From: Burkholderiales bacterium
GTDB taxonomy: Bacteria; Pseudomonadota; Gammaproteobacteria; Burkholderiales; Casimicrobiaceae
Direction of reading: 5' to 3'
Assembly: GCA_025981645.1 (NCBI GenBank)
Contig: JAICXH010000012.1
Location: 1-42,704, forward strand
DNA length: 42,704 nucleotides
The translations under genes were made by a program, and so were the position numbers. Shown here in pieces: positions 29,241 to 40,773 of the stretch; positions within the stretch are counted from its first letter, which is position 1, and each line of letters opens with the position of its first letter. Under the pieces are notes generated by a model, which worked only from the letters and a program-made list of their open reading frames with translations, was not told the origin of the DNA and made no database searches.

Positions 29241-29672
29241 TCAGCGAGCGTCGCGCATGCTCTCAACCCAGCATTGACTGACGATCGAAAGCAATCGGAT
29301 GGCGTCTTGCGCCCCCGGCTCGCGCGCGAGCTTCCAGAGACCAGCAATGCCGCCACTGGATGGCGGTGCCGCCGCGACTTGTCGGTCCATCAGGCCGAGC
29401 GCCTTGGATAATCCGATCAGCAGATGCTGACCCTCCGGACGCTCGAGCACGCGGAGAAGCTGCAGCAGCCCCTCGTTGCGCGTCAATCGATCAAGCAGCG
29501 TGGCGCCTTCACTGATGGCCCTGGCGAGCCGGGTGACCATTTCGTCCGACATCGCGTCGCGTGCGGAACCGATGAGCGTTGCTATCTCGGCGAGCTGCTC
29601 GAGTCCGGGTGGGGCAATGCCCTCGCGCTCACCCGCAACCGAAGCCGGCGCCAATTCCGTGTCGGTGCTCAT
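29241..29672 (-). CDS. DUF1641 family protein
   Basis: Protein of 143 aa, mostly helical, with the DUF1641 pattern of repeated Leu-rich helices (LIGSARDAMSDEMVTRLAR, then LLQLLRVLERPEGQHLLIGL). No signal peptide or transmembrane segment. DUF1641 proteins are typically encoded beside sulfide:quinone-reductase-like flavoproteins, as here, where it starts 10 bp after that gene. A structural or electron-transfer partner role is plausible but unproven. It is the last gene of the minus-strand scn unit. Confidence 0.8.
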   Translation of the reverse strand: MSTDTELAPASVAGEREGIAPPGLEQLAEIATLIGSARDAMSDEMVTRLARAISEGATLLDRLTRNEGLLQLLRVLERPEGQHLLIGLSKALGLMDRQVAAAPPSSGGIAGLWKLAREPGAQDAIRLLSIVSQCWVESMRDAR

Positions 29673-29682
29673 GGCGTCGCCC

Positions 29683-30816
29683 TTAAAGTAGACCGCGCAC
29701 GGTAGACCAGTACATCTGGTTGTACGCGACCTTGAACCAATGGACCGACTTTGTAGGAGGTTTCAGTTCCGGCAGGTTGATGTAATCGAAGGCGTTGTGC
29801 GTGGCACGATCAAAACCGGCCTCGATGAAGCAATACACTCTGCCGTCATATTCCCTGACTGGAACCCCGGTCTTGATCACCGAAACGATGTTGTCCGACG
29901 CGACCTCGGCCTCGAAATGCGCGGCCGAGCCCGTCTTGCTGACGGGAATATTGGTTGCATCGCCGATCACATAGACGTTGTCGTGATCGTTCATGGTCAG
30001 CTTGAAGCGATCGGTAGGAATCCAGCCGCCCAGCCCGAGATTGTTCGTCTCCACCATTTCCATTCCGCGGTGGGGCGGGATCGCGATCAGCAAATCGTAC
30101 TTGCACTCCGTACCCTCTTCGCTGTAGACGATCTTTTTGACGGGATCGACTTCCCTCACGTTGAACAGCGTCTCGTACTCGATCCCTGCCTTGTCGAATT
30201 CTGGCTTGGCCCATCGAGCGACGTTGGCGGTAGCGTGCACATGGTTGACCGGATAGTTGTATTGCAGCTTGACCTTGTCGCGGATATTGCGCGCCTTGAA
30301 AAAGTCGTGCAGCAGAAACATCGCCTCGATCGGGGCAACCGGGCACTTGTGTGGTAGCGAAACCACCATCGCGACGGTGCCGCCGCGGAACTCCATCAGG
30401 CGCTTGTGCAGACGGAGCGCACCCTCCTCCGTATAGAAATTCTCAGAGCCTTCTGCCATGCCGGGTACTTCCTGCGGGACGATTCGCGCCCCGGTCGCAA
30501 TCACAAGCAGGTCGTACGCATAAGTCTTGCCACTGCCGGTTTTGACCTCGTTTCGATCGAGGTGGAATTCCGTTACCGGATCTACGTGAAAATCGATGCT
30601 CGACTCCAGCAGGCTCGCCTCGTCGCGATAGAGCTGATCCGGAGTCATCTGCCCGAACGCCACGTACAGCAGCCCAGGCTGGTACATGTGCTTGTCGGAG
30701 GCTGAGAGCAAGGTAATTCGAACCTTACCAGCACGGATCTCGTTCGCAAGCCGGCGCGCGAGGCTGTTACCAAGAATTGTGCCGCCTGTTCCACCGCCGA
30801 CGATCAGGATTTGCAT
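29683..30816 (-). CDS. sulfide:quinone oxidoreductase-like FAD protein
   Basis: Flavoprotein of 377 aa. It has an N-terminal FAD loop (ILIVGGGTGGTILGNSLA), LLVIATGARIVP, and NVYVIGDATNIPVSKTG near residue 280. Three cysteines are present: Cys158 in SLPHKCPVAP, Cys238, and Cys329 in VYCFIEAG. Cys158 and Cys329 are at the positions expected for the polysulfide-carrying pair of SQR; Cys238 is less clear. The expected reaction is sulfide oxidation to persulfide with electrons passed to ubiquinone. The ATG at 30816 has GAGG eight bases upstream. It stands between tusA and a DUF1641 gene; a non-SQR role such as persulfide transfer is an alternative. Confidence 0.8.
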   Translation of the reverse strand: MQILIVGGGTGGTILGNSLARRLANEIRAGKVRITLLSASDKHMYQPGLLYVAFGQMTPDQLYRDEASLLESSIDFHVDPVTEFHLDRNEVKTGSGKTYAYDLLVIATGARIVPQEVPGMAEGSENFYTEEGALRLHKRLMEFRGGTVAMVVSLPHKCPVAPIEAMFLLHDFFKARNIRDKVKLQYNYPVNHVHATANVARWAKPEFDKAGIEYETLFNVREVDPVKKIVYSEEGTECKYDLLIAIPPHRGMEMVETNNLGLGGWIPTDRFKLTMNDHDNVYVIGDATNIPVSKTGSAAHFEAEVASDNIVSVIKTGVPVREYDGRVYCFIEAGFDRATHNAFDYINLPELKPPTKSVHWFKVAYNQMYWSTVRGLL

Positions 30817-30850
30817 CGATTTACCTCGTGCCGCTATCGGAGCGGCGGAA

Positions 30851-31081
30851 TCACTTCGCTTTACGTACCACGATGTGCCACACGCCATTTACCTCAGTGG
30901 TGCCCACCATCTGGTGACCAACTTTCTTGATCCATTCCGGAACGTCATCTGCAGATCCCTTGTCCGTCGAGAGCACTTCGAGTTCATCGCCGACCCCGAT
31001 GAGTTTCATGTTGGCAATGAGTTCCATCAGCGGGCCGGGGCAGAACGTGTTGCGCGCATCCAGTACCTTCCTTTGTGGCAT
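30851..31081 (-). CDS. tusA: TusA/SirA-like sulfur carrier protein
   Basis: Protein of 76 aa with the TusA fold. The conserved CPxP motif is CPGPL with the sulfur-carrying Cys14 near the N-terminus, followed by GVGDELEVLSTDKGSADDVPEW and a C-terminal strand. Length and motif match the family closely. TusA proteins carry persulfide sulfur between enzymes, in thiouridine synthesis or in dissimilatory sulfur oxidation; beside DsrE-like and SQR-like genes the second role fits. It is separated from the flavoprotein gene by 34 bp. Confidence 0.92.
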   Translation of the reverse strand: MPQRKVLDARNTFCPGPLMELIANMKLIGVGDELEVLSTDKGSADDVPEWIKKVGHQMVGTTEVNGVWHIVVRKAK

Positions 31082-31111
31082 AAGACAGGTTCTCCGATTC
31101 GGGAGCCGGCG

Positions 31112-31504
31112 TCAAAACGTCCACGCCTGGCTGCCGGCCGCGTCGCTCAGAAACTTGGTGAGCCCGAGCGGCTCATCCAGATACGACTCGAGTTGCTCAC
31201 GCGACGCACCGAGGACATCCATTGCCATCGAACATGGATAGATCCGGGCGTCCCCCAGTTCGACAGCTTGCCGAAACAGCTCCTTGAAGGGCGGAACGTT
31301 CACCTGTTGCATGGACTCGCCGAATGCACCCTCCGTCGGGGCCTGTGCGCGGTTCTCCGAGAGAAAGCAAGGGAGTGCGTTCATCGATAGAAACACCGCC
31401 ACCTCGCTGCCGCTCACGGCAGCCACCGAGGCGACCATGGCGGCCATTTGCAGTCGCTCGAGCGAACCGGACACGACAATGATGCTCATCCTTGTCGGAT
31501 TCAT
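31112..31504 (-). CDS. DsrE/DsrE2-like sulfur transfer protein
   Basis: Protein of 130 aa. An N-terminal strand-helix segment ([18 protein letters not shown]) leads to a hydrophobic helix and a conserved [11 protein letters not shown] motif with Cys91; Cys46 is in ALPCFLS. The CSMxMD motif is typical of the DsrE2 branch, whose members receive and donate sulfane sulfur with TusA. I used the ATG at 31504, with AAGG nine bases upstream; an ATG 15 bases later is possible. It lies between cbtA and tusA in the same orientation. Confidence 0.82.
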
Positions 31505-31650
31505 ACCTGATGCCTTTTTCTACAGACGATTGTGTCGGTCCCCCGCCATGACACGGGTTGCCGAAGCGGACCCGGGCAATTGGGGCGCGGTACCGCGTGG
31601 CGATTGCATGTCAGTGAATCGAGCCCGGCGCGCACCACCGTTCGCCCCGG

Positions 31651-32469
31651 TTACATGCGCGCAGCCGCTTGCCCGCCTCCCTCCGGCTCGGCGATTACCA
31701 TCTTGAGGTAGCGTCGCGCGACCCAACCCGAGGCGCTCCCCAACATCAGCCAAAGACAGACGTTCGTTAGCGCCGTCGCCCAGACGAAACGTTGGGACAG
31801 GTGCTCCAACGCGGCAGCATCCAAAGCCGAGTGCTCGGCAAACGGGTGCGGCGGCAGAGCAGGCGCGCCGATCAAGTACGGTACCGCCAGCAGCGCCAGC
31901 GCCATCCACCGCCACGGGGATTTGCCGAACGACGCGCCGGCCAGCGCGATGGCCGCGCAGGCGGCGGTCAGCACCCACCAGAGCTGCCGCGCAACCAGCG
32001 GGGCTACGATGCCGCCAGGTATCTCCGGCGGCAAACCGAGGGCCGGCGCCACAAAGAACACAGCGTATCCCGCGACACCCCAGAGAAGCCCGTAATTCCA
32101 GCCCAGTTTGGACGCAAAACCAAAGTGAAGCGCCGCCCCCATCGCCGCGAGCAAGACCAGCGCGAACCCCATGGCGGTCAGTGCATTGGCCAAAACGGTG
32201 AAGCCGGTCCGCTCGACGCCGTCAGCGGGGCTCCACGCTTCGACTTCGTGCTCATGGATCGCCGCCGCGCGTGGGGTGTCGGCACTATCGTCGTGCGCGG
32301 GCGTCTCCACACCGGCCGATGCTCCGGGTTGTGGAACCTCGGCCTTCTGCTCGAACACTTCGGCGGCGAGAATGATCGGGATCGTCAGCCAGTGCTGGAG
32401 GAGGCTAACTCCGGCGCCCGATACAAGGCCGATCAGAAGTGCCCAAAGCACAACCCGGCGAAACAGCAT
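31651..32469 (-). CDS. cbtA: CbtA predicted cobalt transporter subunit
   Basis: Integral membrane protein of 272 aa with about six hydrophobic helices: one near the N-terminus (FRRVVLWALLIGLVSGAGVS), then from about 93 to 250. A His/Asp/Glu-rich loop around residues 58-80 (HDD, HEHEVEAW) is a likely metal-binding region. CbtA with CbtB was predicted as a cobalt uptake system from its link to cobalamin regulation (family knowledge). Here it sits directly after thiocyanate hydrolase and importer genes, so cobalt delivery to the hydrolase is the natural inference. No cobalamin riboswitch is visible upstream. Confidence 0.85.
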   Translation of the reverse strand: MLFRRVVLWALLIGLVSGAGVSLLQHWLTIPIILAAEVFEQKAEVPQPGASAGVETPAHDDSADTPRAAAIHEHEVEAWSPADGVERTGFTVLANALTAMGFALVLLAAMGAALHFGFASKLGWNYGLLWGVAGYAVFFVAPALGLPPEIPGGIVAPLVARQLWWVLTAACAAIALAGASFGKSPWRWMALALLAVPYLIGAPALPPHPFAEHSALDAAALEHLSQRFVWATALTNVCLWLMLGSASGWVARRYLKMVIAEPEGGGQAAARM

Positions 32470-32484
32470 GTCGACTTTCTGCTG

Positions 32485-32667
32485 TCAGTGGCACGGAAAG
32501 TCTGCTGAGTGCCGTACGTCATGTGCGGCGTTGTGCACGGCGGGGATATGCGAGAACCCGGCGCCGTAGATCAGCGCGCTACCCAGCAGGAACGCGGCGA
32601 AGAGCTGAAGCCCCTTGGAAATCGCGATAGTGCGCGGGTACGTCGCAGTGATGGCTTGGCTATGCAT
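32485..32667 (-). CDS. cbtB: CbtB predicted cobalt transporter subunit
   Basis: Protein of 60 aa with one transmembrane helix (LQLFAAFLLGSALIYGAGF) and a His-rich C-terminal tail (HIPAVHNAAHDVRHSADFPCH, with five His and one Cys), the pattern that defines CbtB. It starts with ATG at 32667, preceded by GAGGAGC, overlaps the 35-codon frame upstream by 8 bp, and is followed by cbtA after 15 bp. The tail probably captures the metal ion for CbtA. Confidence 0.88.
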   Translation of the reverse strand: MHSQAITATYPRTIAISKGLQLFAAFLLGSALIYGAGFSHIPAVHNAAHDVRHSADFPCH

Positions 32668-32767
32668 TTTGATTGCTCCTCATTGAACGGATAAGACGGG
32701 CTGCTGCAAACACCTCCGGATGGGACAACTGGTTACCACCGTCGATCGTGCACGTTTCATAGGACAT
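32660..32767 (-). CDS. 35-aa reading frame between permease and cbtB
   Basis: ATG at 32767 to TAG at 32660, 35 codons, starting MSYETCTIDGGNQLSHPEV and ending MRSNQNA. It fits between the permease stop (11 bp upstream) and cbtB (8-bp overlap), with GGAA five bases before the ATG. That packing is what a translated operon gene would show. One Cys, no membrane segment, no family I recognise. Chance in a 108-base gap is possible, so its reality rests on position rather than homology. Confidence 0.45.
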   Translation of the reverse strand: MSYETCTIDGGNQLSHPEVFAAARLIRSMRSNQNA

Positions 32768-32778
32768 CGGCGTTCCGG

Positions 32779-33633
32779 TCAGGAATGCCGCTGCCAGCCG
32801 TACCGTCTGATCAGTTGCACAATACAACCGTCCAGCAGGTAACCGATGGCTCCGACCACGAGAACCATTGCCATGAGCTGATCGTAATTGATGCTTTCGC
32901 GTGCATTCTCGATCGAGTAGCCGAGACCTGAGGTCACCCCGAAGAACTCTGCGGGGACAAGAACGATCCATGCGACGCCGAGAGCAAGTCGAAGGCCGGT
33001 GAGCACGTCGAAAGTGATCGCCCGTACGATGATCTGCGTCAGGATCTGCCATCGACTGGCGCCGAGATTCCGCGCTACCTTGAACCAGTTCGGATCCACT
33101 TTGGCCAGACCCGCCGCAGTGGAAAATATCACCGGCCAGACCGCGGCAATCGTGATCAGAAAGATAATTGCCGAGTCCCAGCCGATGAACACGATCACTG
33201 CGATCGGTTCCCAAGACAGCGGGCTGATCATGCGCAGTAATTGGAACGGGGCATTGCTCAATTCGCGAAAGATCCGGACGCGGCCAATCAGAACGCCGAT
33301 CGGAGCCCCGACGGCGATTGCGATAAGCAGCCCCGTCGCCAACCGCCACCCGCTCGACCAGACCGCGCTCTGGATCTGTCCGCTGCGCCACATGCCGCCC
33401 ATTGCCCGGAGCGCCGGGAGAGGCCCGAAGCTGGCGAAATAGGCCGTTGACGAACTGCGCGCGAGAAGCTCGATGCCCAGCCACCAGAGGGCGAAGAGAA
33501 TCGCGAGACCCGCGACGAAATTGAACGCCGCCTGCCGCGTGGTCTTGCCGAGCCCAAGCGGTGCGTCGATCACTGCGGTGGCGGCGGTGTCGGCGCCGGC
33601 GAGCTCCGTCGCAATGATATTCGGCCCCGGCAT
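32779..33633 (-). CDS. ABC transporter permease B, NrtB/SsuC family
   Basis: Inner-membrane permease of 284 aa with about six helices and a BPD-type cytoplasmic coupling loop (ARNLGASRWQILTQI). It is closely similar to the permease encoded just upstream: ISPLSW, AAVWPVIF, AGLAKVDPNWFKVARNLGA and LALGVAWIVLVPAE are shared. The pair therefore looks like an old duplication forming a heterodimeric channel. I chose the ATG at 33633, two bases after the upstream stop; an ATG at 33687 would overlap the other permease by 52 bp and adds residues unlike the family. Confidence 0.88.
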   Translation of the reverse strand: MPGPNIIATELAGADTAATAVIDAPLGLGKTTRQAAFNFVAGLAILFALWWLGIELLARSSSTAYFASFGPLPALRAMGGMWRSGQIQSAVWSSGWRLATGLLIAIAVGAPIGVLIGRVRIFRELSNAPFQLLRMISPLSWEPIAVIVFIGWDSAIIFLITIAAVWPVIFSTAAGLAKVDPNWFKVARNLGASRWQILTQIIVRAITFDVLTGLRLALGVAWIVLVPAEFFGVTSGLGYSIENARESINYDQLMAMVLVVGAIGYLLDGCIVQLIRRYGWQRHS

Positions 33634-33635
33634 CT

Positions 33636-34460
33636 CTAGCCCGCCACTCGGTGGCGCCAGCTGTAGCGCGTGATCAGTGCGACACAAATGCCATCCAGGA
33701 ACCAGCCGATGATCCCGATGACGAGCACCATCACTGTGAGGTGGTTATACGAAAGCGTGTCCCGCGCATCCCTGATCGCGTAGCCGAGCCCCGAGGTGAC
33801 CCCCAGAAGCTCCGCGGGTACGAGTACGATCCACGCGACGCCCAGCGCCAGGCGGATGCCGGTGAAGACGTCGAACGCGATCGCCGGCAAAATCACCAGA
33901 GAGATCATGTGAACGGGATTTGCGCCGAGATTGCGGGCGACCTTGAACCAGTTCGGGTCCACCTTGGCCAATCCCGCAGCGGTAGCGAAGATCACCGGCC
34001 AAACTGCCGCAATCGCGATCAGGAAGATAATCGCCTGGTTCCAGTCCGGATACATGATTACTGCGAGCGGCATCCAGGAGAGCGGGCTGATCATGCGCAG
34101 GAACTGAAACCCTGAATTGCTCAGCTCGCGAAACCGCTTGCTGAGGCCCATGAGGATCCCGATCGGCACGCCGAAGATAACGGCGAGAAGCATGCCCATG
34201 CCGATGCGATACCCGCTGGCAACGACGGCGTCCTGAATCCTGTCGGTTTGCCAGAGGAAGGGAACCGACTTGAAGGTCGGAATCGGACCGAAGGTCACAA
34301 ATGTTCGCGTTGCCGGGTTGAGCCCCAGCAGCATTGTTCCTAGCTCCCAGAGCGCAGCAAACGCAAGCAGACCGAGAATCCCGCAAGTCAGGCGCCGCAC
34401 CCCGAAGACCCGTTGACACAGGGAGGTCAGTGATCCCGCGGGTGCGGCGACTCCGATCAT
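33636..34460 (-). CDS. ABC transporter permease A, NrtB/SsuC family
   Basis: Inner-membrane permease of 274 aa with about six helices and the coupling loop ARNLGANPVHMISLV. Family resemblance is to nitrate, taurine and sulfonate importers (NrtB, TauC, SsuC). The ATG at 34460 overlaps the stop of the substrate-binding gene by 4 bp (ATGA). It precedes a second similar permease by 2 bp, unlike the single-permease layout usual for this family. Within the scn unit, thiocyanate or a related small anion is the likely substrate (inference from context only). Confidence 0.88.
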   Translation of the reverse strand: MIGVAAPAGSLTSLCQRVFGVRRLTCGILGLLAFAALWELGTMLLGLNPATRTFVTFGPIPTFKSVPFLWQTDRIQDAVVASGYRIGMGMLLAVIFGVPIGILMGLSKRFRELSNSGFQFLRMISPLSWMPLAVIMYPDWNQAIIFLIAIAAVWPVIFATAAGLAKVDPNWFKVARNLGANPVHMISLVILPAIAFDVFTGIRLALGVAWIVLVPAELLGVTSGLGYAIRDARDTLSYNHLTVMVLVIGIIGWFLDGICVALITRYSWRHRVAG

Positions 34461-35785
34461 ACTTCGATGACTTCCGTGCGGACAAACGGATCACCCGTTT
34501 GCGGCACGCTCAAATCGTCTTTCCACTTGGGATGATTTTCGAGCGATTTCTTGATGTAGCTGTAATTCAGAAGGTCCTTTACCACGAAGTCGGTGGACAG
34601 TTTATCCATGAACGACTTGTCGCCGGTCACGACAAGCTTCCGCAGCTGATCCGTAACGACTTCGGTGGCCGATGGATAGGGCCACGCCTGGAAGTTGATG
34701 CGGCTCTGGTGCCAGTCCACATGCTTGATCGCCTGCGGATTCTTGTAATAGGCGGGGTCGTAGAAATTCATTGCCCGGTCGACTACCTCGAATGAGAACG
34801 GGATGTAGTTCTTGCCGTCCTTCGACAGCATGTGCGCGGTCTCCTTTCGGTTCTCCGCCATATAGAGCTGCGCCTCCACGACCGCATTGTGAATGCTCTG
34901 CGCCCAACCCGCACGTGCCGGATCCATGACGTCGGCCTCGTGCATCGACACCACGCAGCATGGATGCCCCTTCCAGACGTCGCCGGTGAAGCGCAGCATC
35001 TTGGCGCCGGCCTTGAGCTCACCGAGAGCGTTGAACGGCTCGGCACAAAAATATCCGTCGACTTTTCTGGCCGCGAGCGCCGGAGGCATGTCCGGCGGCG
35101 CCAGCACGAGCAGATTGCACTCGTTGGGTGCGAGCTTCGCGTCCTGCGGACGGATCACCGGAGTGATACCCGCCTGCCGCAGGCAGATTTGCGCGATGAT
35201 GTTGTGATTCGAGTACCAGTACGGCACCGCAAGTTGCTTACCACCAAGTTCCTTGAAACTCGTTATGCCCGTGTGCCCGCCGACCACGACGGCCGAGCCG
35301 TTGGTGTGGTCCCAGGCGGTGATCTTCACTGGGAATTTGTTGTTGTAGCGCATCCACAGGGGGATCGGATTGAGCAGGTGCACGAGGTTGAATTTGTGTG
35401 CCTGGAACGCCTCGACGATCTCCGACCAGCCGCGTACGAGCGTCGGGCGTACGGAATCCAGCCCCTCCTTCTTGTAGAAGCCCATCTCGTGCGCGATCAG
35501 CAGGGCGGCGGCGTCGGTGATCGGCAGATACCCGACACGGACGACCGGGTCGAACTTCTTGTCAGCCCAACCTTTCTTCGCCGCCAGCGCAGCGGCGCCG
35601 CCGAACGCGGCGAGCGCACCCACTTTAAGCACCGATCGCCGCGTAAGCTCCGTGCCGAGCGCCCCATCGAAGAGCGGTCGCTCGAGTGCAAGCTTGGGAT
35701 CGACGATTCCGTCGCCGCATTGTTCACCTCCAGCCGGCAGCCCCGCGGAAGGATCTTCACGCTTGTTGCTTCGCCACTTCGTCAT
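34457..35785 (-). CDS. ABC transporter substrate-binding protein, NrtA/SsuA-like, Tat signal
   Basis: Binding protein of 442 aa. A twin-arginine signal TRRSVLKVGALAAFGG has Arg49-Arg50, preceded by an unusually long 48-residue polar N-region. The mature part begins near VRVGYLPITDAAALLIAHEMGFYKKEG, the NMT1/NrtA-type fold that also binds nitrate, bicarbonate and sulfonates. A Tat signal implies export after folding. The ATG at 35785 has GGGAGG upstream, so the long leader seems real. It lies 50 bp after the ATPase gene and is translationally coupled to the first permease. Thiocyanate binding is inferred from its neighbours. Confidence 0.88.
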   Translation of the reverse strand: MTKWRSNKREDPSAGLPAGGEQCGDGIVDPKLALERPLFDGALGTELTRRSVLKVGALAAFGGAAALAAKKGWADKKFDPVVRVGYLPITDAAALLIAHEMGFYKKEGLDSVRPTLVRGWSEIVEAFQAHKFNLVHLLNPIPLWMRYNNKFPVKITAWDHTNGSAVVVGGHTGITSFKELGGKQLAVPYWYSNHNIIAQICLRQAGITPVIRPQDAKLAPNECNLLVLAPPDMPPALAARKVDGYFCAEPFNALGELKAGAKMLRFTGDVWKGHPCCVVSMHEADVMDPARAGWAQSIHNAVVEAQLYMAENRKETAHMLSKDGKNYIPFSFEVVDRAMNFYDPAYYKNPQAIKHVDWHQSRINFQAWPYPSATEVVTDQLRKLVVTGDKSFMDKLSTDFVVKDLLNYSYIKKSLENHPKWKDDLSVPQTGDPFVRTEVIEV

Positions 35786-35835
35786 CTTCTGACCCTCCCG
35801 TCTGGGTTGAGATCGGATCGGCTTGCTGCGCCGGC

Positions 35836-36708
35836 TTACGCCCGTGTGGGACCGAGATTCCCGGTTGCGACCACAGTCTTTGCGATGTTCCCCGGCCGGG
35901 ACTCGGCGCCGGTTCGAACCGGCGCCTCGTCATCGGAATCGCCCGGTTGCAATCTGGTCGCCTCCTCGAACGCCTTCATCAGGCGGGCGCGCATGTCCTG
36001 CACTGCCGGATCCTGTCGCTCGCGTGGACCGTTCAAGTCGATTGGAATGTCGTGAAAGATCTTGCCCGGTCGTCCCGCCATGATCAGGGCGCGCTCGCTC
36101 ATCAGGACCGCTTCGTCTATATCGTGCGTAACGATCACCATATTGATACCGAGGCGTTTGACGATTGATCGGACGTCGCGCTGCAATGCCGCACGGGTAA
36201 ACGCGTCCAGGGCGGAGAAAGGCTCATCCAGCAGGAGCAGCTCAGGCTCCATCACCAACGAACGCGCAAGTGCGACGCGCTGCTGCTGGCCGCCGGAGAG
36301 GTCCTGCACGTTGGCATCCGCAAACTCCTGAAGCTCCACCAGACGGATCGCATCGGCGACCCGTCTTCGAATCTCGTCCTTGGGCCGGTGAGCGAACCGC
36401 AGTCCGATTCCGACGTTTTGTGCGACCTGCATCCAGGGGAACAGGTGGGGCGCCTGGAACATCATGACCCACCGTGGCGACGGACCCTCCACCAGAGTGT
36501 CGTCCAGGCGTACGGATCCGTGGGTCGGCCGCAACAGACCCGCGACAATGTGAAGTAGCGTCGACTTGCCGCATCCGGAGCGCCCGATGATGGCCAGCGC
36601 CTCGCCCGCCTGCGCCTCTACCTCGACCCGTTCGAACGTGAGCGCGCTGCGCGCGCTATAACGGTGCGTTAAGCCCTGAATTCTTATTCGGACGCCGCGC
36701 TTTGCCAT
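35836..36708 (-). CDS. ABC transporter ATP-binding protein, NrtC/SsuB-like
   Basis: ATPase of 290 aa. Walker A is GRSGCGKST (42-50), the signature is LSGGQQQR (137-144), Walker B is LLLLDEP (157-163), and VIVTHDIDEAV holds the switch His. The family powers nitrate, taurine and sulfonate import. A C-terminal tail of about 45 residues after the core (GDSDDEAPVRTGAES onward) is polar and longer than in SsuB. GGAG lies 10 bases before the ATG at 36708. It opens the four-gene transporter block. Confidence 0.92.
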   Translation of the reverse strand: MAKRGVRIRIQGLTHRYSARSALTFERVEVEAQAGEALAIIGRSGCGKSTLLHIVAGLLRPTHGSVRLDDTLVEGPSPRWVMMFQAPHLFPWMQVAQNVGIGLRFAHRPKDEIRRRVADAIRLVELQEFADANVQDLSGGQQQRVALARSLVMEPELLLLDEPFSALDAFTRAALQRDVRSIVKRLGINMVIVTHDIDEAVLMSERALIMAGRPGKIFHDIPIDLNGPRERQDPAVQDMRARLMKAFEEATRLQPGDSDDEAPVRTGAESRPGNIAKTVVATGNLGPTRA

Positions 36709-36748
36709 CTCCCTGACTCTCCACCACTGGGCTTCGACGAAGTAGCTC

Positions 36749-36981
36749 CTACTGCAAGCTGCCGGATTGCAGCTGTGCGGCGACCCCGGGCACCATCGAT
36801 CGGGCCCATTCCATCGGATCGACGGACGCGACGGCGGCTAACGTCGAAGAGTATGCCGACCCTCGCTGTAGCGCCATCGATTCGTCGACGGGCCGGGAGA
36901 ACCTGCTGACCTCCGGAATCGGCACGTCACGACCAGGCCGCCGTGGGCGCCGCGCGAGCCAGTCCTGGCGGTTTGCCTCAT
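36749..36981 (-). CDS. unrecognised small reading frame after P15K, possibly frameshifted at its start
   Basis: A frame ending in TAG at 36749 is open up to 37009. Read from 36979 it has protein-like composition and high third-position GC (ANRQDWLARRPRRPGRD, then VPIPEVSRFSRPVDESMALQ, ending AAQLQSGSLQ). It has no ATG or TTG start; the first GTG is at 36925 (58 codons, no Shine-Dalgarno). An ATG at 36981-36979 directly follows the P15K stop but is out of frame by one base; a single base missing after that ATG would give a 77-aa protein. It could be a real operon gene with a sequencing error, a broken gene, or a frame using the GTG. No family recognised. Without it the gap holds nothing. Confidence 0.45.
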
Positions 36982-37374
36982 CTACGCGCCCGTGAGCCGT
37001 TCGCGTACTTCACGCATCCGGCGGGCAAGCTCTTCCTCGTTGAAGAGATCCCGGGTGAGCATCGAGTGCGCCAGCGCCAGGAGTTGTCGCTCCGGGAAGG
37101 GGACGTTGCGGTAACACGATGCCGACAGTTCGTCTTCTTCCGCGCGGCGTTCGAGCAGAGGCAGCGCACACGCTTCAGCGGAGAGCGCATCGCATGTCGC
37201 GTCAAGCGAAACCTTCCAGGGAGGGTCGGGATTCGTGACCCCGTACTGTGCTGCAAGGTCGCCCCAGACTCTTCCGCTCCTCCCGATTGCCTCCAGCAGC
37301 GGTATCTCGGCCGTGCCGATGCCGACTTCGGAGTCTGCTGCGACAGAAACGTCGGTTTCCTTGGAGGCGCTCAT
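36982..37374 (-). CDS. thiocyanate hydrolase assembly protein (P15K / nitrile hydratase activator-like)
   Basis: Protein of 130 aa with the nitrile hydratase accessory pattern: PLLEAIGRSGRVWGDLAAQYG, LDATCDALSAEACALPLLERR, FPERQLLALAHSMLTRDLFNEEELARRM. In Thiobacillus thioparus a protein of this kind (P15K) follows the three scn genes and is needed for cobalt insertion and cysteine oxidation of the hydrolase. It begins 12 bp after scnC. ATG 37374 is preferred; an in-frame GTG lies 6 bases earlier. Its stop is followed immediately by an ATG. Confidence 0.85.
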   Translation of the reverse strand: MSASKETDVSVAADSEVGIGTAEIPLLEAIGRSGRVWGDLAAQYGVTNPDPPWKVSLDATCDALSAEACALPLLERRAEEDELSASCYRNVPFPERQLLALAHSMLTRDLFNEEELARRMREVRERLTGA

Positions 37375-37386
37375 GGTCACGATGCT

Positions 37387-38088
37387 TCAATGGCCCGTAT
37401 GTATCGGGTGAACCGCAGGATGAACGGGACGCTTTGCATTCGACGTCACACCAGGCTGTGGCATCGCCACGCCGATGAGGCAGTCGCGCGTCACAATCTC
37501 GGTCAGTTGCTGCTCGGACCATCCCTCGGTCCCGATGGGTCTCAGGGGCAGGACCATGTAACGGGTCTTCTGATTGGAATCGACCACCCTGATCTCCACG
37601 TCGGCGGCGAGTTGCAGGCCGAACTCGGCGAGCACCTGCCGCGGCCACCGTACCAGGCGGCGACGATAGTTCGGAGTTCGATACCATTCCGGCGACTGGC
37701 CGAGAATGGTCCGCGGATAGCACGAACACAACGTGCACACCACGACATGCTTCACCTTGGGCGTGTCTTCGAGAACGCGGAAGCTGCAGTAGTCGCTTGG
37801 TGTGCCGAACTTCGTCGGTGGGCCGTTGATCCAGTCGATCCCAACGGCCAGACTCGCCTTGACCCCGTCGGCCACCGCCAACTTCTTGAAGTCAGGATCC
37901 AGCCACGCCTTCGCCGCGAGCCGCGCCGCAGGCAGCGGACCGAGCGTATGAACATACTCGATCCAGCGTCGATGGTCCTCGGCGCTGAAGAGCCCCTTCT
38001 CGATGGCAAGCTCCCGGACCGCCATTTCGAGAATCTCGAAATCGCTCACCTCATCGACCATCGGTGCGGCTTTGTGTGTATCCGACAT
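37387..38088 (-). CDS. scnC: thiocyanate hydrolase gamma subunit
   Basis: Catalytic subunit, homologous to the nitrile hydratase alpha chain, 233 aa. The metal claw is VVCTLCSCYPR with Cys118, Cys121, Ser122 and Cys123. Thr after the first Cys is the cobalt-type signature (iron enzymes have Ser). Surrounding stretches (SDFEILEMAVRELAIEKGLF, GQSPEWYRTPNYRRRLVRWP) match the Thiobacillus thioparus enzyme as I remember it. The reaction is SCN- plus water to carbonyl sulfide and ammonia in the cytoplasm. The C-terminus is His-rich (His223, 227, 230, 233). I chose ATG 38088, with GAGG nine bases upstream; an upstream ATG at 38115 would add nine residues. Confidence 0.94.
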   Translation of the reverse strand: MSDTHKAAPMVDEVSDFEILEMAVRELAIEKGLFSAEDHRRWIEYVHTLGPLPAARLAAKAWLDPDFKKLAVADGVKASLAVGIDWINGPPTKFGTPSDYCSFRVLEDTPKVKHVVVCTLCSCYPRTILGQSPEWYRTPNYRRRLVRWPRQVLAEFGLQLAADVEIRVVDSNQKTRYMVLPLRPIGTEGWSEQQLTEIVTRDCLIGVAMPQPGVTSNAKRPVHPAVHPIHTGH

Positions 38089-38127
38089 CTGTCCGTCCTC
38101 TCCGCGATTCGGCACGCCCGGATCAGC

Positions 38128-38496
38128 TCACGCCTGCTCCAGCCAGCGCTCGGAAAACTCGGTTTCCAGCGTATCGTTCTTGTAGCTCGCCGGATAGTCC
38201 GGCCAAAGTTCGTGCTGACGGAACACGACGCTGTAGAACCATTCAGGGTGATCCGTGTTGTCCCACGCTTCGTCTTCGGCGGCGGGGCTCTCGTAGACGA
38301 CTTTCGTGATGCGGCCCACCGCGCCTCGCGTGTACACCTGACAGCGGGTGTAAAAGATATCGGGCAAATCCCTGATACGTACCTTGTCTCCGTTCTTGAA
38401 TTTCGCCTGGCCCGCTTCACCCCGGAAACATTGCGGGTCGCCGACGCCGCTGGCTTTCTTGGCGTGATGAGCTCTATCGTGCTGATTTTTGCTCAT
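38128..38496 (-). CDS. scnA: thiocyanate hydrolase alpha subunit
   Basis: Structural subunit of 122 aa corresponding to the C-terminal half of the nitrile hydratase beta chain, close to the 126 aa of the Thiobacillus protein. It has KFKNGDKVRIRDLPD, the SH3-like barrel start, and a core with HPEWFYSVVFRQHELWPDY. The N-terminus is His/Lys-rich. It overlaps the end of scnB by 23 bp, so it depends on scnB translation. Separate alpha and beta subunits, rather than one beta chain, distinguish thiocyanate hydrolase from nitrile hydratase. Confidence 0.92.
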   Translation of the reverse strand: MSKNQHDRAHHAKKASGVGDPQCFRGEAGQAKFKNGDKVRIRDLPDIFYTRCQVYTRGAVGRITKVVYESPAAEDEAWDNTDHPEWFYSVVFRQHELWPDYPASYKNDTLETEFSERWLEQA

Positions 38497-38920
38497 AGCG
38501 GCTTTTTACCTCATCGATCTTGTTGACCAGTTCGGTAAGCGTCACGTATTGCTTGTCGACGATGATCCGCGCGGCACTCAGCAGCCAGCGCCCGTAATAC
38601 GGCAGAGCAAGGTATTGCGTCTCGCCGACATCGACATTCTGCCGCCGCCGTCGCTCTTCGGCACTCCAGACGCCACGCCACGCAAGGCACTCGCAGGTTG
38701 CAAAGGTGTTCGCTTCCCACTGTTCCTCTTCCTTTTCCTCCCACTCGATCGGCACATCAGGCTCGCCACCGACGTCGTGTGACGACCGCAGCAGAGCGCG
38801 GTACTTTGCGTGATCGATCGCGTCAGGGTATGGTGCATGCTGCGGCTGGTGGTATGCCGGTTGCAGTTGGCCGACAAGGTCGAAATGGCGCATCAGTGCG
38901 GATCGGGAAGGTGACGGCAT
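38474..38920 (-). CDS. scnB: thiocyanate hydrolase beta subunit
   Basis: Structural subunit of 148 aa (157 in Thiobacillus thioparus) matching the N-terminal half of the nitrile hydratase beta chain. Diagnostic stretches are HDVGGEPDVPIEWEEKEEE, ANTFATCECLAWRGVWSAEE and YYGRWLLSAARIIVDKQYV. It is first in the order scnB-scnA-scnC, as in Thiobacillus. The ATG at 38920 has GGAG ten bases upstream; an ATG at 38893 is less well placed. It opens the long minus-strand unit and is divergent from the LysR gene by 158 bp. Confidence 0.93.
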   Translation of the reverse strand: MPSPSRSALMRHFDLVGQLQPAYHQPQHAPYPDAIDHAKYRALLRSSHDVGGEPDVPIEWEEKEEEQWEANTFATCECLAWRGVWSAEERRRRQNVDVGETQYLALPYYGRWLLSAARIIVDKQYVTLTELVNKIDEVKSRYEQKSAR

Positions 38921-39078: not shown

Positions 39079-40104
39079 ATGGATCGCAATACGGCAACTC
39101 CCGATCGAGACACCGTGTCCCCGCGGTCTATACGCTACTTCCTGGCAGTTGCGGAATATTGCAGCTTCACTCGCGCGGCAGAAGTGTTGTGCATTTCGCA
39201 ACCAAGCCTGTCGCAGCAGGTCAAGCAACTCGAGGAATCCCTCGGCGTTCAGCTGCTTGACCGAACGAGTCGCACGGTACGATTGACCGCAGCGGGTGAA
39301 GTCTATGTACGCTACGCCCGACGCGCGCTCGTTGAGCTGACGGCCGGGAGGCGCGCCCTGCACCAGTTTCAGGATCTCGGTCGCGGCGTGCTGGAGGTCG
39401 GCATGACCCCCATTACCCAATATCTGGTTGCCCCGCTGCTCGAGAGCTTCAGCTCTCACTATCCGGGAATCGAGTTGCATGCCCTCGAGATGCCGCAGGG
39501 CGACATAGAGATCGCGGTGGGCGAGGATCAGATCGATCTCGGCATCGCGTTCACGAACAGCCTGCTGTCGAATGACGCCCGGTCTTCCGAGATCGACACA
39601 CATGTTCTATTCACCGAGGCGCTGGAGCTTGCCGTCGGCAACGATCATGCTCGTGCGGAGCAGCAAACGCCGATGAGCGGGCAGACGTTGGGCCAACTCC
39701 CTCTTGTACTGCTCGGTGGAAAGTTTGCGCTAAGACGCCACGTCGATCTCTATTGCGGGGAGCACCAGATTACGCCGCACGTCGTAATGGAAACCAATTC
39801 GCTGAGCATAATCCTCGAGATGGTCCGGCTCGGCCGGCTGGCTACCGTGCTGCCGAGTGCCATTGTCTGCGCGCAAAGCGAACTTCGCGCGGTAAAGCTA
39901 ATTCCGGAGCTGCCCCAGCACGCGATCACCCTGATTTGCCGAAGGGGCGCCTCCAGGAGCCCGGCGTGCATTGCGTTCGCGGAACTCGCATCGGAATGGA
40001 GCTCGCACCGATGCACGGCAAAGTCGCAGGAGCGGCTGCGCCCCTGCCCGCTCGCGGAAAGCTGCGACAGGAGCAGGGAAGGCGCTACGGTAGTGAGGCA
40101 GTAG
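39079..40104 (+). CDS. LysR-family regulator, CynR-like
   Basis: Transcription regulator of 341 aa. The N-terminal winged helix-turn-helix (about 18-76) reads YFLAVAEYCSFTRAAEVL and SQPSLSQQVKQLEESLGVQL. The effector domain includes ETNSLSIILEMVRLGRLATVLPSAIV (shown in parts: METNSLSIILEMV, ATVLPSAIV) and DLYCGEHQITPHVV. These resemble E. coli CynR, the cyanate-responsive activator. It is divergent from scnB, the classic layout for a LysR controlling its neighbour. About 35 residues at the C-terminus exceed the usual length and are Arg/Ser/Cys-rich, perhaps because the original stop was lost. AGGA lies eight bases before the ATG. Confidence 0.88.
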   Translation: MDRNTATPDRDTVSPRSIRYFLAVAEYCSFTRAAEVLCISQPSLSQQVKQLEESLGVQLLDRTSRTVRLTAAGEVYVRYARRALVELTAGRRALHQFQDLGRGVLEVGMTPITQYLVAPLLESFSSHYPGIELHALEMPQGDIEIAVGEDQIDLGIAFTNSLLSNDARSSEIDTHVLFTEALELAVGNDHARAEQQTPMSGQTLGQLPLVLLGGKFALRRHVDLYCGEHQITPHVVMETNSLSIILEMVRLGRLATVLPSAIVCAQSELRAVKLIPELPQHAITLICRRGASRSPACIAFAELASEWSSHRCTAKSQERLRPCPLAESCDRSREGATVVRQ

Positions 40105-40182: not shown

Positions 40183-40773
40183 TCAAGGCTGATCGCGTCG
40201 GCGATCCGGCAGCACCGCGTTGTCGTATCCGGAGACGAACTCGGTCGTCATTCCTGTCGCCTGTTCGAACAGGTGGCGCCGAACCGCTCCAATATTCGAG
40301 CCATAAACATGGATGCTGATCGCTGCACCGACGGTCCCGCCATGTGATACTGCGTGGATGTCCCCGATGCGCGGCGAGACTCGATCAATGTCCCCGCGGC
40401 GCATCCGGTGTACATTCTTCGGGACCTTCGGCACGCCGGGCCCGGTCACGTCGTACTCCTCGCACAATTCTTCACCACGCAACTGTCCGATCAGCCCCCA
40501 CGTCAGATGATCGTGGATGGGCGTCCGCTGCGTTGGCAGCCACACGAAACTCACAACCGAAAAGCGTTCTTGTGGGTCACCGTACAGCAAATACTGACGG
40601 TATCGATCGCGGCTGGGCACCGCGAACTCGTCTGGCAGCCACTGATTCGAGCACACCAGATCGTGCAGCAGCCCGGCCCCGACCTCGAGTATCTTCGCTT
40701 CATTCTCGCGATGTTCCTCGACAAGACGCGTCATCGCTGCAACAAACGTACGCATCGGCTTGAGCTCGCTCAC
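40183..40773 (-). CDS. thiol dioxygenase, cysteine dioxygenase family (Gln-type)
   Basis: Cupin iron enzyme of 196 aa adding O2 to a small thiol to give a sulfinate. The iron ligands are His87 and His89 in TPIHDHLTWG and His140 in GDIHAVSH. A Ser-His-Tyr set is present in SIHVYGSN (Ser153, His155, Tyr157). Gln60 in RYRQYLLYGD stands where cysteine dioxygenases have Arg, and the crosslinking Cys is replaced by Gly. These traits mark the 3-mercaptopropionate dioxygenase branch (family knowledge). It shares the composition of the scn region but is separated from it by the regulator, so its part in thiocyanate metabolism is open. Confidence 0.82.
   Translation of the reverse strand: MSELKPMRTFVAAMTRLVEEHRENEAKILEVGAGLLHDLVCSNQWLPDEFAVPSRDRYRQYLLYGDPQERFSVVSFVWLPTQRTPIHDHLTWGLIGQLRGEELCEEYDVTGPGVPKVPKNVHRMRRGDIDRVSPRIGDIHAVSHGGTVGAAISIHVYGSNIGAVRRHLFEQATGMTTEFVSGYDNAVLPDRRRDQP

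Follow-up and report, generated by a model that had tools for sequence, protein, structure and literature searches.

A putative thiocyanate-catabolism island of the carbonyl sulfide type, probably acquired horizontally, in a Burkholderiales bacterium of the family Casimicrobiaceae

The window analyzed here is a stretch of 42,704 nucleotides of contig JAICXH010000012.1, from the genome of a Burkholderiales bacterium of the family Casimicrobiaceae (assembly GCA_025981645.1). Fourteen genes run along its minus strand from position 38920 to 29241, and each named gene was found at its coordinates in the open reading frame (ORF) list (Table 1). They encode the thiocyanate hydrolase subunits ScnB, ScnA, and ScnC, a P15K-type protein, an ATP-binding cassette (ABC) importer, the proposed cobalt transporter CbtBA, and a sulfur module of four genes (dsrE, tusA, sqr, and duf1641). 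An earlier reading made from the sequence alone (the original prediction) had regarded these genes as one unit, and its gene calls were borne out by Pfam, NCBIfam, and structure-sequence matches. Neighboring genes overlap or are separated by at most 146 bp, with a single exception of 273 bp between the P15K and ATPase genes. This gap had no Rfam match, and no terminator-like site was listed inside it; elsewhere its length is variable, with a median of 156 bp in 61 loci when measured to the stop-to-stop frame. All 14 genes could lie on one transcript. The start of sqr is most likely 30816 instead of 30888, and permease 2 probably starts at 33633 instead of 33687, as judged from the translation.

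The identity of the hydrolase was assessed from its catalytic subunit. ScnC scored 374.1 bits against TIGR03887, the NCBIfam equivalog model of the thiocyanate hydrolase gamma subunit (cut-off, 291.45), and 195 bits against the nitrile hydratase alpha model, which is under the cut-off of 250; the nitrile hydratase reading was rejected on these scores. Residues 9-242 align with the Thiobacillus thioparus chain 2DD4_C (E = 3.1e-127), and the ScnC of T. thioparus DSM 505 (locus L032) is 80% identical to that of the window. The alpha and beta subunits are encoded by two separate genes, each matching its own 2DD4 chain (ScnA to 2DD4_A and ScnB to 2DD4_B), as the original prediction had stated. The cobalt-type claw that it had reported in ScnC is present as CTLCSC (Cys127, Cys130, and Cys132), in which the Thr in the second position marks the cobalt type. 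The Thiobacillus enzyme converts thiocyanate to carbonyl sulfide (COS) and ammonia, and the ScnABC of the window is predicted to catalyze the same reaction. The protein encoded after scnC had no Pfam match over the cut-off (weak NHase_beta_N, E = 0.16) and is 59% identical to the protein at the same position in T. thioparus DSM 505 (L032). Its name, P15K, and its role as an activator are assumed from the title of a reference.

Two proteins of the sulfur module keep invariant cysteines. Cys91 of DsrE is invariant in 17 aligned sequences, and C182 and C353 of the SQR-like protein (numbering of the 401-aa ORF reaching 30888) are both invariant in 19. The SQR-like protein scored 318 bits against NF049943, a model of a selenoprotein subtype of type III SQR, under the cut-off of 525; it is an SQR in the broad sense, namely, a related flavoprotein with two conserved redox cysteines. 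The DUF1641 label is indirect: PF07849 was matched by five of 17 aligned sequences, and the protein of the window, itself one of the 17, matched no Pfam family. For the importer, the ATPase matched many NCBIfam ABC ATPase models, with ntrCD among the best three and all listed models under their own cut-offs. The binding protein had 3un6, an unspecified binding protein, as its top solved match, followed by the Nrt and Cmp nitrate/bicarbonate proteins. CbtB and CbtA scored over the cut-offs of TIGR02459 and TIGR02458, respectively, both of which are titled as a "proposed" cobalt transporter.

Table 1. Genes of the thiocyanate hydrolase cluster and the divergent regulator gene in the window.
Feature	Position	Strand	Basis
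LysR-type regulator	39079..40104	+	Pfam HTH_1 and LysR_substrate; divergent from scnB
ScnB, thiocyanate hydrolase beta	38474..38920	-	2DD4_B, E 2.4e-61; NHase_beta_N
ScnA, thiocyanate hydrolase alpha	38128..38496	-	2DD4_A, E 4.6e-52; NHase_beta_C
ScnC, catalytic cobalt subunit (gamma), claw CTLCSC	37387..38115	-	TIGR03887; 2DD4_C
P15K-type activator (putative maturation role)	36982..37380	-	59% identity to T. thioparus DSM 505 counterpart
ABC importer ATPase	35836..36708	-	Pfam ABC_tran
Periplasmic anion-binding protein, Tat-like signal TRRSVLK	34457..35785	-	Pfam NMT1_2; Tat motif from translation
ABC permease 1	33636..34460	-	Pfam BPD_transp_1
ABC permease 2	32779..33687	-	Pfam BPD_transp_1; likely start 33633
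CbtB, small subunit of proposed cobalt transporter	32485..32667	-	PF09489; TIGR02459 over cut-off
CbtA, proposed cobalt permease	31651..32469	-	PF09490; TIGR02458 over cut-off
DsrE-family sulfur carrier	31112..31504	-	PF13686/PF02635
TusA sulfurtransferase, CPGP motif, Cys14	30851..31081	-	PF01206
SQR-like flavoprotein, two redox Cys	29683..30816	-	Pyr_redox_2; aligned with human SQR
DUF1641-related protein, end of sulfur module	29241..29672	-	PF07849 matches in aligned relatives

When a genome collection was scanned, a relative of ScnC was found encoded in 348 stretches; some of these relatives may be nitrile hydratases. The best 80 were fetched, and 12 were cut at the 3' end, leaving 68 loci for comparison. 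Within the same cluster, scnB was present in 67 of the 68, scnA in 63, the P15K gene in 67, the ATPase gene in 54, the binding protein gene in 58, the permease gene in 54, cbtB in 21, and cbtA in 15. The four sulfur genes behaved in an all-or-none manner, all four being present in 56 loci and none in 12, and duf1641 accompanied sqr in all 56 uncut loci having sqr. No mention of an all-or-none sulfur module beside scn was found in the open-licence literature searched. The full set of scn, P15K, ABC, and sulfur genes was found in 46 loci, 11 of which also hold CbtAB inside the cluster. The original prediction had offered conservation of the neighbors with scn in other genomes as its own check, and across these loci the neighbors are conserved. 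Pairwise protein distances correlated with those of ScnC at 0.41 to 0.77 and with those of SQR at 0.47 to 0.84, the highest value being that of DUF1641 with SQR; correlations of this size could arise from common species history alone. Overall, the enzyme and its activator are nearly constant, the four sulfur genes form a block, and the cobalt transporter is exchangeable.

The cobalt genes were counted wherever they lay in a fetched stretch (at most 10 kb per side), with no correction for the relatedness of the loci. CbtA was found near scn in 26 of the 80 loci and CbiM in 25; six had a HupE-type permease, and no locus had two of the three together. One of the three was present in 57 of the 80 loci; among the 55 whose 3' end is uncut and which have 5 kb or more upstream, the count was 42. 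Three unrelated families of cobalt/nickel transporters substitute for each other around scn, so the cobalt supply proposed in the original prediction is supported by more than adjacency, and this mutual replacement makes a good case that providing cobalt may be part of the function. Differing cobalt systems in two species were already noted by Berben et al. 2017 (PMC5328954); no mention of the three-way exchange was found in the open-licence literature searched.

The sulfur module also occurs apart from scn. Six relatives, five from the genus and one from the order, were examined, and each has a free-standing dsrE-tusA-sqr-duf1641 module ordered as in the window, with no scn, cobalt, or binding-protein gene of the cluster matched in the surrounding 4.1 to 14 kb. 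Ten of 21 sister genomes have an SQR at 61-65% identity but no ScnC of thiocyanate hydrolase grade. The window's own genome contains further pieces without scn, both at contig ends: dsrE, tusA, and sqr residues 1-247 on contig C10 (L123, 3-1501), and sqr residues 202-377 with duf1641 on contig C119 (L124, 5589-6744). These pieces are either one broken copy of the module or two copies. Since the module is found without scn in relatives and again in the same genome, the sulfur half of the cluster is best read as a general sulfide-oxidation module, one copy of which was recruited to scn, and the idea that it is a thiocyanate-specific invention was discarded on the same grounds. In L063 (11159-11524) and eight other loci, an extra DsrE-family gene was seen about 1.1-1.4 kb past the scnC frame start, near the P15K gene.

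The original prediction knew of no description of the whole combination as one system. This was incorrect, for essentially the same layout was given by Berben et al. 2017 (PMC5328954). In T. thioparus, the published order is scnABC, a hypothetical gene, four NitT/TauT ABC subunits with a hypothetical gene between, DsrE/F-like, TusA, SQR, and a hypothetical gene, with cyanase, a methylase, and a cobalt transporter subunit upstream of scn in Thiobacillus; Thioalkalivibrio thiocyanodenitrificans is similarly arranged but uses another cobalt uptake system (PMC5328954). A conserved operon, credited to Kantor 2015, is also mentioned in a passage of a bioreactor paper (PMC5458468), and PMC8061750 describes a Thiobacillus that has thiocyanate hydrolase together with transporters, a cyanase, and a carbonic anhydrase. 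The window follows the published order (scn, the P15K-position protein, ABC, DsrE, TusA, SQR, and the terminal protein) and has its cobalt genes, cbtB and cbtA, inside the cluster; the cyanase gene that lies directly upstream in the Thiobacillus variant is absent from this position. T. thioparus DSM 505 (L032) shares the order scnBAC, P15K-position protein, ABC, DsrE, TusA, SQR, and terminal protein. It differs in that a cobalt transporter subunit (of the CbiM family, by elimination), cyanase, and methylase lie upstream, whereas the window has CbtBA between permease 2 and dsrE, an adjacent divergent LysR gene, and no cyanase found. T. thiocyanodenitrificans ARhD 1 was compared through the published account of its cluster, which likens it to that of Thiobacillus (PMC5328954); a Thioalkalivibrio metagenome-assembled genome (MAG; L021) has CbtB/CbtA after the permeases, as in the window. 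The MAG Gammaproteobacteria FW104_bin.7 (L002) has the order of the window from LysR to DUF1641, including CbtBA, with a ScnC 86% identical; other genes of the window are at times closer to other loci (SQR to L003 and DUF1641 to L027). The system is therefore already described in other sulfur bacteria, and the window is a further example of a real and widespread arrangement. A cyanase gene lies near scn in 50 of the 80 loci (e.g., L049, 6888-7553), though the enzyme yields COS and not cyanate; no cyanase (PF02560) match was obtained in the window's genome, which is 87% complete. Five upstream ORFs initially listed as conserved unknowns had no Pfam match, and three of them overlie cyanase, CbiM, or methyltransferase genes and are probably shadow frames.

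The variation extends to the hydrolase genes in Actinobacteria. No separate scnA was found in the actinobacterial loci L077-L081. In the three of these five loci that were inspected (L077, 9106-9987; L079; and L081), ScnB and ScnA are seemingly fused in one frame, followed by ScnC and P15K. The scnB-matched frame is 275-294 residues long in these three and in L077 reads on into ScnA-like sequence, and loss of scnA was rejected as an explanation. No importer and no sulfur module were matched within the cluster of the fused loci.

The cluster and its LysR gene form a low-GC island. The G+C content is 0.613 in the cluster, 0.612 in the LysR gene, 0.676 in the patatin gene that converges on the DUF1641 end, and 0.659 in the 2.6 kb beyond LysR; positions 1-28111 have 0.687, and 37 sliding windows of the size of the cluster span 0.678 to 0.699. 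A ScnC at 70% identity or more was found in only two of 22 genomes of the genus, that of the window and the sister G004, and six other sisters have matches of 40-49%, which were taken for nitrile hydratases. In G004 the same cluster is present but lacks CbtAB, and a gene for a HupE-type permease lies just past the LysR gene. The ScnC of G004 lies in a different part of the ScnC tree from that of the window, both being flagged as long branches. The island was probably acquired horizontally, and acquisition from outside is the simplest, though not a proven, reading. In Roseomonas and Azospirillum, scnC at 62-63% identity is carried on plasmids NZ_CP061099.1 and NZ_CP029832.1, a possible vehicle for spread.

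An adjacent divergent LysR gene scoring over 200 bits was present in 30 of the 80 fetched loci. An Rfam search of the cluster gave no known RNA element at E up to 1, and the site counts were near the shuffled expectation (promoter-like, 3 vs 1.9; terminator-like, 11 vs 8.0). One promoter-like site lies at 39044-39017, upstream of scnB, and the predictions gave no usable operon boundary. A shared LysR box was sought and dismissed; the alignment of the 30 upstream regions, including that of the window, was mostly LysR coding sequence with no common box. Further out, at 40183-40773 on the minus strand, lies a gene for a 196-aa protein that resembles by eye a cupin of the cysteine dioxygenase type; it had no Pfam match over the cut-off and has relatives in two of 81 loci.

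According to the original prediction, the released sulfide is trapped as persulfide and passed to TusA/DsrE. The gene identities and the overall pathway held up, and direct release of sulfide from the hydrolase did not. The product of the enzyme is COS and the cluster has no recognized COS hydrolase; the original prediction had skipped this step. T. thioparus DSM 505 encodes the known COS hydrolase (L110; 3vqj, E = 1.3e-114), and a DsrE-like gene (L110, 2529-3119) was seen by eye to adjoin it. In the window's genome, a Thiobacillus-type COS hydrolase was not found at 87% completeness (best match, E = 1.3e-5 and 21% identity); the protein behind this match is the single beta-carbonic anhydrase detected, and its nearest relatives are ordinary carbonic anhydrases. 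The search covered 52 genomes, many of them incomplete MAGs: that of the window, the sister G004, and 50 from among the 80 loci. Five of them, counting the genome of the query itself, have a close relative of COS hydrolase (E below 1e-100), and 29 gave some match at E up to 1e-3. Some beta-carbonic anhydrase was present in 36 and was not found in 16, including Betaproteobacteria SCN1 (L051) and Halochromatium roseum (L050). As the search addressed the beta class and many genomes are incomplete, the missing COS hydrolase is no proof of a new enzyme.

The genome also holds candidates for the final oxidation. On contig C12 (L107, 3369-9564), genes for DsrE, HdrB-like, HdrA-like, a protein of no family, HdrC-like, and HdrB-like proteins follow in this order. 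The order was compared with hdrC1-B1-A-hyp-hdrC2-B2 with LbpA and DsrE (PMC6382920), of which hdrC1 and LbpA were not identified. SoxB was found in the genome; DsrA was searched for there and not found. In Metallosphaera, sulfur is reported to pass between DsrE3A and TusA, whose genes adjoin those of an Hdr-like complex (PMC4175335), and in Hyphomicrobium sHdr is reported to oxidize sulfane sulfur to sulfite (PMC10451225).

Taken together, these data make it likely that the cluster is a thiocyanate-catabolism island of the COS type, probably horizontally acquired, that works as follows. The NitT/TauT-like importer would bring thiocyanate into the cell, CbtAB would provide cobalt, and P15K would assist the maturation of ScnC. 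ScnABC would then hydrolyze thiocyanate to COS and ammonia, and COS would be converted to H2S by a carbonic-anhydrase-type or other activity encoded outside the cluster. SQR would oxidize H2S and load the sulfur onto a thiol, from which TusA/DsrE would pass it to cytoplasmic oxidation machinery, here most likely the sHdr-like complex encoded on another contig, alongside SoxB. The divergent LysR protein would probably sense thiocyanate or a product.

Several observations weigh against this reading. In 12 of the 68 loci, scn is not accompanied by the sulfur module, although in two of them (L040 and L067) only 1.3-1.5 kb of contig is left and the absence is unsure. No COS hydrolase is recognized in the cluster, and the top solved match of the beta-carbonic anhydrase is 2a5v (E = 5.6e-25), with COS hydrolase 3vqj matched only at E = 1.3e-4. 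The relatives of the importer transport nitrate, bicarbonate, or sulfonates, and a same-strand ATPase gene is absent from the cluster in nine of the 56 loci with the sulfur module, among them L012, where ABC genes sit on the opposite strand. None of CbtA, CbiM, and HupE was found in 13 of the 55 loci with ample flanks. The cluster genes have differing nearest neighbors, and the cluster may have been assembled as a mosaic instead of being transferred as a single block.

The twelve loci without the module, five of them actinobacterial, would fit a role in nitrogen scavenging or detoxification, in which thiocyanate is mainly a source of ammonia or is simply removed and the sulfur module just disposes of toxic sulfide without energy gain. 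This is possible but rather unlikely, given that the full module is paired with scn in 56 of the 68 loci and that SoxB and the sHdr-like genes make up the kit of a sulfur oxidizer; a RuBisCO-family match on contig C142 (L083, 1298-1723; 46 bits against a Pfam cut-off of 30), covering positions 3-147 of 299, or half the profile, points the same way. We consider it unlikely that the importer carries another substrate (e.g., cyanate, bicarbonate, nitrate, or sulfonate) and that thiocyanate enters otherwise. The nitrate/bicarbonate proteins that follow the unspecified protein among the solved relatives of the binding protein would agree with this, as would the nine loci in which the sulfur module is kept but no same-strand ATPase gene lies in the cluster, but the binding protein is retained in the scn cluster in 58 of the 68 loci. 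Hydrolysis of nitriles instead of thiocyanate is highly improbable. ScnABC does belong to the nitrile hydratase superfamily; against this stand the two model scores of ScnC, its identity to the T. thioparus protein, the separate ScnA and ScnB, and a sulfur module that would be without purpose. For the COS step, a more speculative and quite doubtful proposal is that most scn bacteria, including that of the window, handle COS by an unrecognized activity rather than the Thiobacillus COS hydrolase. This could be an ordinary carbonic anhydrase, a carbonic anhydrase of another class, or a thiol within the co-conserved DsrE-TusA-SQR-DUF1641 proteins that takes the sulfur directly with no free sulfide. 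Carbonic anhydrases have COS hydrolysis among their listed functions (PMC13098186). The existence of the free-standing module without scn argues against direct uptake of sulfur from COS by thiols of the module.

Thiocyanate pollution arises from mining, and carriers of thiocyanate hydrolase are used to remove it. The conversion of COS to sulfide is the least understood step of the thiocyanate route and the main interest of this locus, which resembles a portable catabolic island and is lacking from most of the genus.

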